Origin: Candidatus Cottocaccamicrobium excrementipullorum
GTDB taxonomy: Bacteria; Bacillota; Clostridia; Lachnospirales; Lachnospiraceae
DNA length: 56,257 nucleotides
Direction: 5' to 3'
Assembly (NCBI GenBank): GCA_018713255.1
Contig: DVFL01000025.1
Location: 1-56,257 of the forward strand
Of this stretch, positions 43,566-47,586 are shown in pieces. Below the pieces are notes generated by a model. It searched no databases, was not told the DNA's origin, and saw nothing but the letters and a program-made list of their open reading frames with translations. Within the stretch, counting starts at the first letter, position 1. The number at the start of each line of letters is the position of its first letter. The position numbers and the translations under genes are program-made.

Positions 43566-44474
43566 TTAATCCTCAATGGGAACAACCGCACCCTGATAGG
43601 TAGTTTCGATGAAGGCCTTGATCTCATCACTCTTTAATACTTCAATCAGCGCCTGGATGGATTCTTTGTTCTCATCCCCTTCTCTTACCGCCACCACATT
43701 GGGGTAATTCTGAACAGCCAGAGAATCCTGGGATTCAACTGCAAGGGCATCAGCAACCTTTAACCCTGCATCAATAGCATAGTTTCCATTGATGACTGCA
43801 ATATCTACATCATTGATGGAACGGGGAATCTGAGCCGCTTCAATCTCAACAATTTCCAGATTCTTAGGATTGTCCACGATATCGTTTTTCGTGGCAGTCA
43901 GTCCTGCTCCATCTGCCAGAGTAATCAGCCCCTGATCCTGCAGGAGCAGAAGCGCTCTTGCTTCATTCGTTACATCGTTGGGAACTGCCACGCTGGCGCC
44001 ATCTGCCAGAGACTCCAGATCTGCTGTCTTTCCAGCATAAATGCCGAAGGGCTCATAGTGGATTGCTCCTGCACTCACCAGATGGGTTCCGTGCTGCTCG
44101 TTAAAATCATTCAGATAAGTCAGATGCTGGAAATAGTTTGCATCCAATTCTCCTGACTCCAGCGCATTGTTGGGCTGGATGTAATCGGTGTATTCTTTGA
44201 TCTGCAGATCATAGCCTTTTTCTTTCATCGCCTCCTGAGCCGCTGCAAGAATCTCCGCATGGGGAGCAGGGCTTGCACCTACAATCAAAGTTTCCAGCTC
44301 TCCGCTTGCCGCCTCTTCTGTGGACTCATCAGCAGCTTCTGCCGTCTCAGTCTCTGCTGATGACTCCGCTGCCGTGCTTTCGCTGGTGTTGGTCTCCGTC
44401 TGAGAACCGCCGCAGCCTGCCAGGGCAAATGCCGTCAGAGAGGCTGCCAGGAAAATGCCTAATCTTTTTTTCAT
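43566..44474 (-). CDS. metQ: Methionine ABC transporter substrate-binding lipoprotein
   Basis: This protein of 302 residues has a lipoprotein signal peptide with lipobox LAGCGG (lipid Cys near residue 20), a Glu/Ser/Thr-rich linker, and a periplasmic-binding fold of the NlpA/MetQ family (TLIVGASPAPHAEILAAAQ in two parts, then YIQPNNALESGELDANYFQH). It captures methionine or related compounds outside the cell. The start used is the ATG of MKKRLGIF, after GAGGAGG; the frame is open to 44492. It is the third gene of the metNIQ operon and is followed by the terminator. Confidence 0.95.
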   Translation of the reverse strand: MKKRLGIFLAASLTAFALAGCGGSQTETNTSESTAAESSAETETAEAADESTEEAASGELETLIVGASPAPHAEILAAAQEAMKEKGYDLQIKEYTDYIQPNNALESGELDANYFQHLTYLNDFNEQHGTHLVSAGAIHYEPFGIYAGKTADLESLADGASVAVPNDVTNEARALLLLQDQGLITLADGAGLTATKNDIVDNPKNLEIVEIEAAQIPRSINDVDIAVINGNYAIDAGLKVADALAVESQDSLAVQNYPNVVAVREGDENKESIQALIEVLKSDEIKAFIETTYQGAVVPIED

Positions 44475-44517
44475 GTTGTACTTCCTCCTCATTTCTATGA
44501 TTTCAGCAAGCCGGTTC

Positions 44518-45183
44518 CTAACGGATCCGCTTGTCGCTGACTTTGGATAGCTTCATCCAGGTTTCCTGGATAATCTGAACGATCACCACCAGAATAATCA
44601 CCGTCACGAACATCATGTCGGTTTCATACCGGTAATAACCATAGTTAATGGCGATAGCGCCTAATCCGCCGCCGCCTACAAAACCGGCCATAGCAGAATA
44701 TCCTAACACTGTGGTGATGGAAATAGCCGCTCCCACCAGAAGGCTTGGCTTAGCCTCTGGAAGCAGAACTTTCCAGATAATCTGCCAGGTCGTGGCTCCC
44801 ATAGACTGGGCCGCCTCGATTACGCCGGCGTCCACCTCTTTAAAGGAGGACTCCACCATTCGGGCAATATAGGGAGCTGCTGCCGCAACCAGCGGCGGAA
44901 TCACCGCTTTTGCCCCCAGAGTAGTGCCTACAATAGCCCTGGTCACAGGAATCATCATAATCAACAAAATCATAAAGGGGACAGACCGAAGCAGATTAAT
45001 GATTAACCCCAGTATTTTCTGGAGCACCGGAAAAGGTTTGATTCCATCTGCATCTGTCACCACCAGAATAATTCCTAAGGGAATACCGATCACATAAGCC
45101 AGAAAAGAAGACACAAAGGTCATCAGCAATGTCTCCCAGATTCCCTGCTTCAGCATATCTAAGGTAGCCGCATCCCAAACCAT
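44518..45183 (-). CDS. metI: Methionine ABC transporter permease
   Basis: This 221-residue inner membrane protein has five to six hydrophobic segments and the EAA loop (EAAQSMGATTWQIIWKVLLP) that contacts the ATPase. It begins at the nucleotide after the metN stop codon, with GAGGTAAG inside metN as the ribosome site, so translation is coupled. It forms the channel of the MetNIQ importer. Confidence 0.95.
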   Translation of the reverse strand: MVWDAATLDMLKQGIWETLLMTFVSSFLAYVIGIPLGIILVVTDADGIKPFPVLQKILGLIINLLRSVPFMILLIMMIPVTRAIVGTTLGAKAVIPPLVAAAAPYIARMVESSFKEVDAGVIEAAQSMGATTWQIIWKVLLPEAKPSLLVGAAISITTVLGYSAMAGFVGGGGLGAIAINYGYYRYETDMMFVTVIILVVIVQIIQETWMKLSKVSDKRIR

Positions 45184-46191
45184 TTATCTTACCTCCTCAA
45201 ATGTGACCTTCATGGTCTTTAAGTAATTAATCACCCGTCTGGCTTCCGTCTCATCCTCCGGGATCTGCAGAAGCATCTGGCCCATGGCTTTTCCTCCCAC
45301 ATCCCTGGTCTCTGCATACATGATGTTGACGGGGGTCTTGCAGGCTAATACCAGATTGGAAATCACCGGCTCTGAAGACTCTCTTCCATCAAAAATAATC
45401 CTCAGCTGCCTGTCCTTGCCTAAAGCCACCTGTCTTGCCGCATCGCCTAAAATCAGCTGGCGGCCAATGGGAGTTTTAGGATTAGAAAAGATCTCCGACA
45501 CACTTCCAGATTCTGCAATATGGCTTTGATCAATAATCGCCACCCGGTCGCAGATGGCTTCGATCACCGCCATCTCATGGGTAATCACGATCACCGTTAC
45601 TCCCATCTCCCGGTTGATCTGTTTTAACAGCTCCAGAATCTGCTTTGTAGTATTCGGATCCAGGGCGCTGGTCGCCTCATCGCACAAAAGCACCTTAGGG
45701 TTCGTGGCCATGGCTCTGGCAATGGCCACCCTCTGCTTCTGTCCTCCAGAAAGCTGAGCAGGATAAGCCTTCATCCTGTCCTCCAGGCCCACCATGGCCA
45801 GCAGTTCCTGAGCCCGCTTTTTGGCCTCCTTCTTGGGCGTTCCCACCAACTCCATGGGGAAACACACATTCTGCAGCACATTCCGCTGAGCCAGCAGGTT
45901 AAACTGCTGAAAAATCATGCCCATGTTCCGTCTGGCCTTCCGGATCACTCCCTGGCTTTGCCCAGCCAGGCTGACGCCTTCAAATATCACTGAACCTGAG
46001 GTAGGCGTCTCCAGATAATTAATACAGCGGACCAGCGTGCTCTTTCCTGCTCCAGATAATCCAATAATGCCAAAGATCTCTCCTGGATAAATCTCCAGAT
46101 TAATGTCATCCAGAGCGGTTACCGTTCCGTTTGTGGTTTTAAACTGTTTTCCCAGATTTTTCAGCTGGATAATCGGTTTTCCCTGTTCCAT
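45184..46191 (-). CDS. metN: Methionine ABC transporter ATPase
   Basis: This protein of 335 residues has Walker A GLSGAGKST, signature LSGGQKQR, Walker B VLLCDEAT and a C-terminal NIL domain (about residues 250-335), which in MetN binds methionine and inhibits transport when the cell is supplied. The start used is the ATG of MEQGKPIIQL with GGAG 9 nt before; ATGs at 46218 and 46206 are alternatives without a clear site. It is preceded by a Met-rich leader ORF and a terminator, so expression is probably set by attenuation. Confidence 0.94.
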   Translation of the reverse strand: MEQGKPIIQLKNLGKQFKTTNGTVTALDDINLEIYPGEIFGIIGLSGAGKSTLVRCINYLETPTSGSVIFEGVSLAGQSQGVIRKARRNMGMIFQQFNLLAQRNVLQNVCFPMELVGTPKKEAKKRAQELLAMVGLEDRMKAYPAQLSGGQKQRVAIARAMATNPKVLLCDEATSALDPNTTKQILELLKQINREMGVTVIVITHEMAVIEAICDRVAIIDQSHIAESGSVSEIFSNPKTPIGRQLILGDAARQVALGKDRQLRIIFDGRESSEPVISNLVLACKTPVNIMYAETRDVGGKAMGQMLLQIPEDETEARRVINYLKTMKVTFEEVR

Positions 46192-46218
46192 CCCTTTATT
46201 CTCCATTCTCTGATTCAT

Positions 46219-46307
46219 TGCAACAGTCTAAAACAGACAGTCACAATTCATTAAACCGGTATATGCGGCTTCTCTCACCTTCTGCCGGCCAAAACTTTCC
46301 GCCGGCC
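46219..46307 (-). other. metN leader distal to the attenuator
   Basis: After the terminator the transcript holds two copies of GGCCGGC 17 nt apart, able to pair with each other, then GCCGCATAT, which can pair over 9 nt (one wobble) with ATGTGCGGC in the leader ORF. No S-box or T-box signature was seen. Confidence 0.4.
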
Positions 46308-46345
46308 AAAAGAAAAAGGCCGCAAGCCATGCACAGCCTGCGACC
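46308..46345 (-). terminator. Predicted attenuator terminator upstream of metN
   Basis: GGTCGCAGGC and GCTTGCGGCC form a 10-bp stem (two wobble pairs) around TGTGCATG, followed by TTTTTCTTTT. It lies between the Met-rich leader ORF and metN in the same transcript, about 95 nt after the leader stop, so it would block metN unless overcome. Confidence 0.85.
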
Positions 46346-46440
46346 TGATTTTATGCCTGTCCTCTTTTATCCCTGTCCTTGGACAAGCCTTTGGTTATCA
46401 TTATCACATTCCATACAGACGAATTCTTATGATCGTTTTT

Positions 46441-46521
46441 TCACGCAAACATCATGCCGCACATCATAGCTGCGCCGCACATCATGTTCATATTCATCTG
46501 CATGACCATCATACGATTCAT
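46441..46521 (-). CDS. Methionine-rich leader peptide of metNIQ
   Basis: This is a 26-residue ORF with 12 methionines, at positions 1, 4, 5, 7, 9, 11, 13, 14, 19, 20, 23 and 24; it also has Cys at 15 and 21. Its ribosome binding site AAAGGAG is near perfect and 6 nt or so from the ATG. A consensus promoter lies upstream and an intrinsic terminator downstream, before metN. This is the layout of a leader-peptide attenuator: slow decoding of ATG codons when Met-tRNA is scarce would prevent the terminator forming. The segment ATGATGTGCGGC occurs twice in it. The alternative, a small metal-binding Met/Cys peptide, cannot be excluded but fits the position less well. Confidence 0.82.
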   Translation of the reverse strand: MNRMMVMQMNMNMMCGAAMMCGMMFA

Positions 46522-46592
46522 AAGACTTCTCCTTTCCGGGAAAGATAAGTATTCCCTAGGTACTCGGTAGGAATTGTTTTTCCTTGGACAAG

Positions 46593-46621
46593 ATTGTACC
46601 CCCATGTGTGCCGTTTGTCAA
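46593..46621 (-). promoter_or_regulatory. metNIQ promoter
   Basis: On the minus strand TTGACA (46621-46616), a 17-bp spacer and TACAAT (46598-46593) form a near-consensus promoter. The -35 overlaps the stop end of the upstream fructokinase gene. The predicted start near 46586 gives a leader of about 65 nt before the Met-rich ORF. Confidence 0.88.
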
Positions 46622-47586
46622 GAGTTTTCCATTAATTCTTTTACTTCTTTCTCCTCAGGCATCACCCGGAGCGCCCCTTTTCTGGTGGTTATAATGGAAG
46701 CCGCCGCATTGGCAAAGGAAAGCATCTGTTCAAGCTTCTCCTGATCTAAGCCTTCCAGGCCGTACTTCAGCACAAAATGAAGGCAGCTTCCCCCGAAGGT
46801 GTCGCCAGCTCCAGTGGTTTCAATGGTGTTCTTCTGAAGATAAGGCGCCTTTTCTACCCGCAGATCCTGGTAATAAGCCCGGCTGCCCTCTTTTCCCATG
46901 GACAGAAGGATCAGCGGAATCTGGTAATTCTCCTTCAGCACCTGAATCCCCTCATCAAAATCCTCTTTTCCCGTGAACCACTGGATCTCATTGTCGGAAA
47001 TCTTTAAGATCTGACAATGACGCAGTCCGTAATCCACCTGCTTTTTCGCCTCTTCCAGAGAAGACCACAGGGGAGGCCGCAAATTAGGATCGAAGGAAAT
47101 CAGGCTTCCGCTTTCCTCCGCCAGAGCAATAGCCCGTTTGGTGGCTTCCCTTACCCGATCATGAGTCATGGACAGGGTGCCGAAATGAAAGATCCGGCAC
47201 TGGCCAAACATCTCTTCCTGAAGCTCTTCCGCCGTCAGCATCATATCTGCTCCTGGATTCCGGTAGAAAGAGAAATCTCTGTCTCCTCCAGGAAGAGTCT
47301 CCACAAAGGCCAGGGTAGTTCTGTGATCCGGATCCATCACCAGTCCCCTAGTATCGATGCCCACCTGATCCAGAATTCCCTTCAGCCTGGTGCCGAAAAT
47401 ATCCACGCCTACTTTTCCCACAAAAGCGGTTTTGTGGCCCAGCTTGTTCAGCATTGCCAGCACATTGCAGGGCGCGCCGCCGGGATTGGCCTCGTAAATA
47501 GGATTTCCCTGACTGCTGATTCCGTTTTCTGTAAAGTCAATGAGAAGTTCTCCCAAGGCTACTACATCATACTGCTTTTCCTTCAT
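46618..47586 (-). CDS. PfkB-family sugar kinase, probable fructokinase
   Basis: This 322-residue ribokinase-fold kinase has the N-terminal GG motif (NPGGAPCNVLAML, residues 34-46) and the catalytic signature ETTGAGDTFGGS (near 258-270) with catalytic Asp. The sequence most resembles fructokinases (ScrK), which make fructose-6-phosphate, though 2-keto-3-deoxygluconate or other sugars are possible. GGGAGG lies 9 nt before ATG. No sucrose genes are adjacent. Its stop codon overlaps the -35 of the metNIQ promoter. Confidence 0.88.
   Translation of the reverse strand: MKEKQYDVVALGELLIDFTENGISSQGNPIYEANPGGAPCNVLAMLNKLGHKTAFVGKVGVDIFGTRLKGILDQVGIDTRGLVMDPDHRTTLAFVETLPGGDRDFSFYRNPGADMMLTAEELQEEMFGQCRIFHFGTLSMTHDRVREATKRAIALAEESGSLISFDPNLRPPLWSSLEEAKKQVDYGLRHCQILKISDNEIQWFTGKEDFDEGIQVLKENYQIPLILLSMGKEGSRAYYQDLRVEKAPYLQKNTIETTGAGDTFGGSCLHFVLKYGLEGLDQEKLEQMLSFANAAASIITTRKGALRVMPEEKEVKELMENS

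Follow-up and report, generated by a model that had tools for sequence, protein, structure and literature searches.

The metNIQ importer operon of the window (the whole stretch of 56,257 nucleotides analysed here) is preceded on the minus strand by a short methionine-rich open reading frame (ORF) and an intrinsic terminator, and this leader is very probably a ribosome-mediated, trp-type transcription attenuator with methionine as the regulatory codon. The trp leader scheme, known from the trp-, his-, thr-, and leu-type attenuators of Proteobacteria, comprises the pairings 1:2, 2:3, and 3:4. Our leader resembles these attenuators in its short ORF with a run of the regulated codon, the corresponding pairings (R1:R2, R2:R3, and R3:R4 in the following), the U-tailed terminator, and the cognate genes downstream. 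It differs from them in that the codon is Met, which is needed for initiation too, in its occurrence in Lachnospiraceae and before importer genes, and in that R1 overlaps the early codons while the stop codon lies at or near R2. A methionine attenuator had been suggested in an initial annotation of this DNA, and the suggestion gains support from the recurring ORF, the terminator, two alternative pairings, and an exchange with methionine T-boxes among relatives. At the level of sequence, the comparison establishes the ORF, its Met codons, its recurrence, its linkage to metN, and three predicted pairings.

The elements lie on the minus strand in the order promoter, AAAGGAG, leader ORF, a 94 nt linker, terminator, metN, metI, and metQ. 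The promoter, TTGACA-17-TACAAT (46621-46593), has 11 of the 12 consensus bases, and transcription probably starts a few bases past 46593. When nine leaders of the genus were aligned on CTTGACAAA, which as the anchor is no evidence itself, the -10 hexamer was TACAAT in seven of the nine and TAAAAT and TAGAAT in the other two. The Shine-Dalgarno (SD) sequence AAAGGAG (46535-46529) stands 7 nt before the ATG at 46521, and the leader ORF of 26 codons plus stop (46521-46441; coding 46521-46444, stop TGA 46443-46441) encodes the peptide MNRMMVMQMNMNMMCGAAMMCGMMFA. Direct reading confirmed promoter, AAAGGAG, and ORF as annotated, including the 12 Met codons at positions 1, 4, 5, 7, 9, 11, 13, 14, 19, 20, 23, and 24. 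By sequence the locus therefore has two features of trp-type leaders, a short ORF with an SD sequence before structural genes and a run of codons for the operon's amino acid (12 of 26 codons are Met before metNIQ). For metN (45184-46218), encoding the ATPase of the methionine ABC importer, the best NCBIfam match was TIGR02314 MetN at 357.8 bits, under the curated cut-off of 499.7; the gene starts at 46218, and the true start may be further in. The permease gene metI (44518-45183) matched NF008049 MetI at 225.5 bits, over the cut-off of 212, while the best matches of metQ (43566-44492), encoding the substrate-binding lipoprotein, were NF008285 MetQ and TIGR00363, both under cut-off.

The Met fraction of 0.22, counted on a 54-aa mechanical ORF that encloses the leader frame, was the joint top value among the 708 ORFs of at least 20 aa in the window, a 23-aa ORF also reaching 0.22. 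The decisive test of a chance origin of such a Met-rich frame is recurrence in relatives. MetN matches were found in 10 of the 11 genomes of the window's genus, its own included, and eight of these ten metN loci carry a Met-rich ORF with an SD sequence; L010 is cut by a contig end and L011 has no ORF. The latter locus (genome G008) retains promoter and terminator before metN, leader ORF and R2 both being absent. A set of 80 titled loci, in which eight genus loci occur again (six of them with ORF), contained a Met-rich ORF upstream of metN in 58 cases, where an ORF counted if it had 4 or more internal Met, a Met share of 14% or more, and an SD-like string; as a search criterion, this string is present in the relatives by construction. 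Under the same criterion the opposite strand gave 0 of 80 and three-base block shuffles gave a mean of 1.6 of 80. Among the 22 titled loci without an ORF at threshold, L047 and L066 are cut short by contig ends, L023 and L064 have T-boxes, L057 has a weaker version, and L016 is L011 again; nothing was recognised in the remaining loci (the Rfam scan covering all except L085 and L086). Lineages without the leader include L021, L022, L063, and L065.

A profile (A2) of 35 leader peptides, themselves taken from beside metN, matched 25 of 396 family genomes (21 of 334 genera) in one place each, and 24 of the 25 matches adjoin metN, the exception being L143 (E 0.002). Since MetN was found at E <= 1e-110 in 85 of 299 family genomes, the leader is thus common yet not universal in the family. 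In 291 genomes drawn from across the class the profile had two matches, both within the family and one of them in the window's own genome. The bare 26-aa peptide, a short single query and weak as such, returned only the own genome from 250 family genomes, and the leader DNA had no match in a plasmid collection. Conservation of a Met-rich ORF and terminator among relatives, which the initial annotation had proposed as a check, is therefore found in many Lachnospiraceae.

In total, 73 distinct leaders had an ORF and a terminator-like site. After 11 were set aside (eight leaders of a second class, L110, L116, and L119), 62 class-1 leaders remained, the terminator coordinates of L003 and L032 being set by hand. 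Within their ORFs, 529 ATGs are in frame compared to 17 and 32 in the other frames, an excess that exists in part by construction because the Met-richest frame was chosen. At least six internal Met were present in 61 of the 62 leaders, though only three were required, and the consensus of 35 peptides reads M.....MQMNM.MM.GM..MCRM..C.K.

At three loci (L023, L064, and L100) a T-box scoring 105-107 bits stands before metN in the leader's place, and its specifier position reads AUG. The specifier register, i.e., the codon directly before the five bases preceding GGAG, was set by six of the 14 T-boxes of the own genome, namely those of ThrRS, ProRS (two), MetRS, PheRS, and IleRS, which read ACC, CCG, CCC, ATG, TTC, and ATC; the second ProRS gene (L154) was named solely by its likeness to L150, and the other eight T-boxes gave no or spurious matches and were unused. 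The AUG specifiers imply that relatives use either a riboswitch binding Met-tRNA or this leader at the same operon. Met T-boxes (RF00230) are like the proposed attenuator in that they would sense tRNA-Met charging and occupy the same place at these three loci, but a T-box binds the tRNA directly and has no leader ORF.

The own genome also has a T-box with an AUG specifier before its MetRS gene and one SAM riboswitch match (RF00162), before metK, so that the leader would be a third kind of Met sensor in one genome. The SAM riboswitch likewise serves methionine-related control, but it binds SAM, and neither RF00162 nor the other Rfam SAM families matched the leader. No Rfam family reached the gathering score in the whole window, and a permissive search of 46180-46640 gave four matches, all far below gathering and none of them S-box or T-box; for RF00230 there was no covariance-model match at gathering in the window or permissively in 46180-46640. 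These searches agree with the absence of S-box and T-box signatures reported earlier. As the leader is long and structured and belongs to no such Rfam family, one might take it for an undescribed riboswitch or a protein-binding element in which the ORF is incidental. This we regard as very improbable: the recurrence of the Met-rich ORF has little or no counterpart in shuffled DNA and on the opposite strand, and R1, R2, R3, and R4 together span the conserved blocks that were observed.

The terminator (R3:R4 plus U-rich tail) occupies 46308-46346 on the minus strand, with a stem of 12 pairs at 46346-46317 and the tail TTTTCTTTT (46316-46308). Stem and U-run stand as first annotated, whereas the length of 10 bp given for the stem does not. 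For 46350-46312 the predicted folding energy is -20.5 kcal/mol (z -4.9), a value that 0 of 200 dinucleotide shuffles equalled. Relatives show a terminator of similar sequence and position, and an intrinsic terminator between ORF and first gene, as in trp-type leaders, is thus a recurring feature.

Comparison of the leaders revealed a recurrent antiterminator between 46416-46397 and 46349-46331. Here R2 (46397-46424, minus strand) pairs through three blocks (46416-46411, 46408-46403, and 46400-46397) with R3 (46331-46349, minus strand; blocks 46331-46336, 46339-46344, and 46346-46349), giving 16 bp at -15.4 kcal/mol, and the stretch from R2 to R3 (46420-46331) folds at -26 kcal/mol (z -3.5). 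From 46346 on, R3 doubles as the terminator's 5' arm and loop; R3 is common to R2:R3 and the terminator, and the two are mutually exclusive, as expected for a trp-type antiterminator. The antiterminator proposed at first, GCGCAGC (46475-46469) with GCTGTGC (46337-46331), can form here (-10.8 kcal/mol) but is not recurrent, GCGCAGC being found in the ORF of only one of the 62 leaders, the window's own, and R2:R3 replaces it.

An R2 element close to UUCAUUUGUAUGGAUUGUGAUU was found in 55 of the 62 class-1 leaders, either between ORF and terminator or overlapping the ORF end; tests on 55 leaders omit L018, L030, L041, L042, L045, L102, and L106, in which R2 was not recognised. The R3 sequence in the leaders is GGUCGCAGGUCUGUG. 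R2 persists in leaders that differ in the reading frame over it and in whether the stop codon is upstream of it, within it, or downstream of it, which argues that its nucleotides matter as RNA. In an alignment of 57 of the 62 leaders (A1, without L030, L041, L042, L045, and L106), 85.1% of 839 R2:R3 cells were paired, compared to at most 51.9% in slid controls. Two-sided changes occurred in five pairs and seven cells; for pairs, the shuffles gave 1.7 and matched the observed count once in 500, while slid controls had up to 4 such pairs and 9 such cells. The covariation score was matched by 36 of 500 shuffles. The duplex energy averaged -12.7 compared to -6.8 with shuffled R2 (62 leaders), and 0 of 20000 partner permutations were as good in total energy, both in the 62 leaders and in the subset of 55. 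R2:R3 was at the 95% mark of shuffles in 45 of 62 leaders (46 of 55 in a second shuffle draw, the small difference being sampling); it missed the mark in 17 of 62, in which the antiterminator is weak. By eye no alternative pairing was found for L030, and L041, L042, and L045 remain outliers. All duplex shuffles (R2:R3, R1:R2, and the second class) preserve base composition only, and the shuffle and permutation tests ignore relatedness, which inflates such tests.

R1, UCAUGCAGAUGAAU (46492-46505, minus strand), spans leader codons 6-10 (V M Q M N) and pairs with R2 as well: 46505-46492 with 46424-46411, 14 bp at -18.7 kcal/mol. Because 46416-46411 is common to R1:R2 and R2:R3, the two pairings are exclusive, and the minimum-energy fold of the whole leader holds R1:R2 and the terminator together. 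R1 covers early codons including the conserved MQMN stretch (AUGCAGAUGAAU). In an alignment of 54 of the 55 leaders (A3, without L005, the start of which is uncertain), 85.5% of 650 R1:R2 cells were paired, compared to at most 48.7% in slid controls. Twelve cells were changed on both sides, compared to 3.6 in shuffles (0 of 500 as high) and at most 9 in slid controls, and none of 500 shuffles had a covariation score as high as the observed 0.160; four pairs were changed on both sides, a number that 24 of 500 shuffles equalled or surpassed and that two slid controls surpassed with 5 and 6. The duplexes were at the 95% mark of shuffles in 46 of 62 leaders, and R1 was the best partner window of R2 in 39 of 55. 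With the stop 8-23 nt before R2 (30 leaders) the mean R1:R2 energy was -18.0, stronger than with the stop 1-6 nt before R2 (-13.4, 13 leaders) or beyond R2 (-13.9, 12 leaders), a difference expected if masking by the ribosome can replace the pairing. A pairing of the ORF end with R2 (R1b:R2) was also considered from the folds; R1:R2 is longer and more general.

These results bear on whether the ORF could be an ordinary small-protein gene with its own terminator, metNIQ being merely downstream. Met- and Cys-rich peptides can bind copper, and a gene for such a metal-binding peptide would look alike as far as ORF and terminator go. It would hardly explain why metN adjoins nearly all profile matches, why antiterminator and R1:R2 pairing recur, why the frame changes at the 3' end of the ORF, or why the leader is swapped with Met T-boxes in relatives, and we consider it extremely improbable.

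The pairings are also found in a second leader class (MRTSF..MC.NMCGMCSMP), present before metN at eight loci including Herbinix (L074, L075, L076, L078, L080, L081, L083, and L115). By eye it differs from class 1, yet the class-1 leaders L060 and L068 also begin with MRTS. In the second class, R1:R2 extends over the start codon and MRTS at -15.9 to -20.2 kcal/mol, with at most 0.5% of shuffles as good, while R2:R3 has -9.8 to -12.4 kcal/mol, values given without a shuffle control. Compensating versions were seen by eye (GAUAAG:CUUAUC and GACGGC:GCUGUC). Since R1 covers the start codon, R1:R2 could also block initiation in this class. Further Met-rich leaders precede metN at L110 and L142; the terminator of L110 is a different one and comes with an apparent antiterminator UGUAUGGU:AUCAUGCG (duplex -13.0 kcal/mol).

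In the proposed attenuator, a ribosome would start the leader ORF after transcription begins. With ample Met-tRNA it would run to the stop, and either R1 would pair with R2 or, in relatives that have their stop codon on R2, the latter would be masked by the ribosome itself; with R2 occupied, R3 would pair with R4, the terminator would form, and metNIQ would stay untranscribed. When elongator Met-tRNA is short, the ribosome would halt on the early Met codons and cover R1, leaving R2 free to pair with R3 before R4 is made, so that no terminator forms and the importer is made. The scheme presumes Met-tRNA as the signal, a coupling of transcription and translation at the leader, and this sign of the response. 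In some Firmicutes transcription is considered to outrun translation, and this would weaken the coupling at the leader.

Ribosome positions were modelled by folding the transcripts of 55 leaders up to R2, with codons 4-16 taken as early Met. Without a ribosome the expected number of R1:R2 pairs averaged 13.5; the mean was 5.4 when a ribosome was placed at the stop, 1.9 when it was on early Met codons, and 12.1 when it was on late ones. The corresponding values for the own leader were 15.7, 14.7, 1.4, and 16.7. In this folding model, an early-Met stall abolishes R1:R2, and in the own leader no other modelled ribosome position prevents R1 from pairing with R2. The low mean of 5.4 at the stop arises from relatives whose stop codon falls on R2, so that R2 is covered directly by the ribosome, and the blocking of R1:R2 by a ribosome on the regulatory codons is a weaker feature in those leaders. 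The free fraction of the R2 core showed a moderate gain, with a mean of 0.44 in the early-Met stall compared to 0.32 with no ribosome and 0.26 at the stop (own leader 0.56, 0.29, and 0.29); relative to the state without ribosome it was freer by 0.1 in 27 of 55 leaders and less free in four. As R1 is masked by construction, this model shows geometry, not kinetics.

When R3 was included in a thermodynamic fold, R2:R3 averaged 7.4 expected pairs in the Met-stalled state and 4.5 both with no ribosome and at the stop, and the Met stall gave fewer R2:R3 pairs than the stop in 13 of 55 leaders. For the own leader the values were 16.3 with no ribosome, 10.6 at the stop, and 16.0 Met-stalled; as a test of the switch, the fold up to R3 did not discriminate the states in the own sequence and was discarded. 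Since the own antiterminator wins even without a ribosome, the off state would have to rest on R1:R2 forming before R3 is transcribed.

Among the amino acids, Met alone makes a codon-stalling leader look self-defeating, as it also starts the peptide, and the present case makes this question testable. With its translation dependent on fMet-tRNA at the start and on Met-tRNA thereafter, the leader might act as a band-pass sensor, a tentative reading that we put at well below even chances: moderate Met shortage would open metNIQ by stalling ribosomes on the many early Met codons, and severe shortage would close it again by stopping initiation, whereupon R1 would pair with R2. Severe starvation is accordingly predicted to stop leader translation and close the switch, Met being also the initiating residue. 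Within the later Met codons lies a weakly supported hairpin (R1a, 46454-46480, minus strand) that folds and perhaps acts as a pause hairpin; compared to codon-order shuffles its z was -0.8 here and -1.2 on average, and below -2 in 14 of 62 leaders.

Besides Met, cysteine stands out as the second commonest residue after the start (9.9% in the 62 leaders), with one to seven Cys per leader (median 3) and at least one in each of the 62. The leader might then be a joint Met/Cys (sulfur amino acid) sensor in which stalling at Cys codons also matters. In line with this, the second leader class reads MC..MCGMCSM and the metL peptide of Streptomyces ends with CMCRRMCAF in the part of the report available (PMC8079986). 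We consider such a joint sensor unlikely, since the Cys codons sit mostly late in the ORF (profile A2), where the modelled late-Met stalls keep R1:R2 (12.1 pairs) and stalls at neighbouring Cys codons would favour termination, and since the UGC codon also falls within the R1a hairpin. The prevalence of Cys, together with the conservation of parts of the peptide at residue level (MQMN, M.MMCRM), would also suit an arrest peptide, in which the nascent Met-rich chain with a ligand (Met or SAM) halts the ribosome and works the same R1/R2/R3/R4 switch. The R1:R2 pairing, however, accounts for MQMN, and the C-terminus of the leader is read in different frames among genus relatives while nucleotides such as TTTGCGTGGAAAA persist, contrary to a defined end motif. 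A ligand-on switch would moreover most simply run the wrong way for an importer, and an arrest peptide appears improbable.

Codon-stalling attenuators are well known for other amino acids and apparently rarely proposed for methionine. A search of the open-licence literature for Met-rich or methionine leader peptides by phrase found none, and subscription literature may hold more. The initial remark that a Met leader peptide would be new needs correction, as a methionine-dependent Met/Cys leader of 29 aa (metL) was predicted before metNIQ of Streptomyces lividans TK24 in a genome reannotation of 2021 (PMC8079986, available part). Both are Met- and Cys-containing leader peptides before metNIQ. 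As far as that part of the report goes, metL differs in being leaderless, in having two internal Met and no typical Rho-independent terminator, and in that no alternative pairings are described (PMC8079986); the two were compared by description. The accessible portion of a 2005 study on Actinobacteria gives no RNA element before Met operons (PMC1262725). Within Firmicutes, a 2010 survey, in its available text, has a T-box before a Met transporter of Lactobacillus sakei (PMC2965389), and a paper on Met transporters of Lactococcus lactis names a "riboswitch" in the title and mentions the T-box 34 times (PMC7058034). According to the same portion of the survey, His leader peptides replace T-boxes before hisS/hisZ in bacilli (PMC2965389); like the present leader these are Firmicutes leader peptides in a T-box's place, but they use histidine codons and belong to other genes.

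The methionine case spans many genera of one family and combines the three exclusive pairings, the two sequence classes, and the exchange with Met T-boxes. The proposed attenuator would predict how these gut bacteria tune methionine uptake, and it bears on transcription-translation coupling in Firmicutes; if true, two classes with the same pairings would show such coupling at Lachnospiraceae leaders.

Some further features were observed around the leader. The upstream ORF (46618-47586) is sugar-kinase-like by eye, and its stop codon falls within the -35 hexamer (46616-46621) of the leader promoter. The sequence TTGTCCAAGGA occurs twice on the minus strand, near the transcript start (46591-46581) and in the linker after R2 (46386-46376), the second copy not being found by eye in the aligned genus leaders. 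Past the promoter (46574-46551, minus strand) stands a short inverted repeat, ATTCCTA...TAGGGAAT. It is retained as CCTA..TAG in eight of the nine aligned genus leaders by eye (not in L009), and CCTA..TAG is also present in L011, which has no leader ORF.
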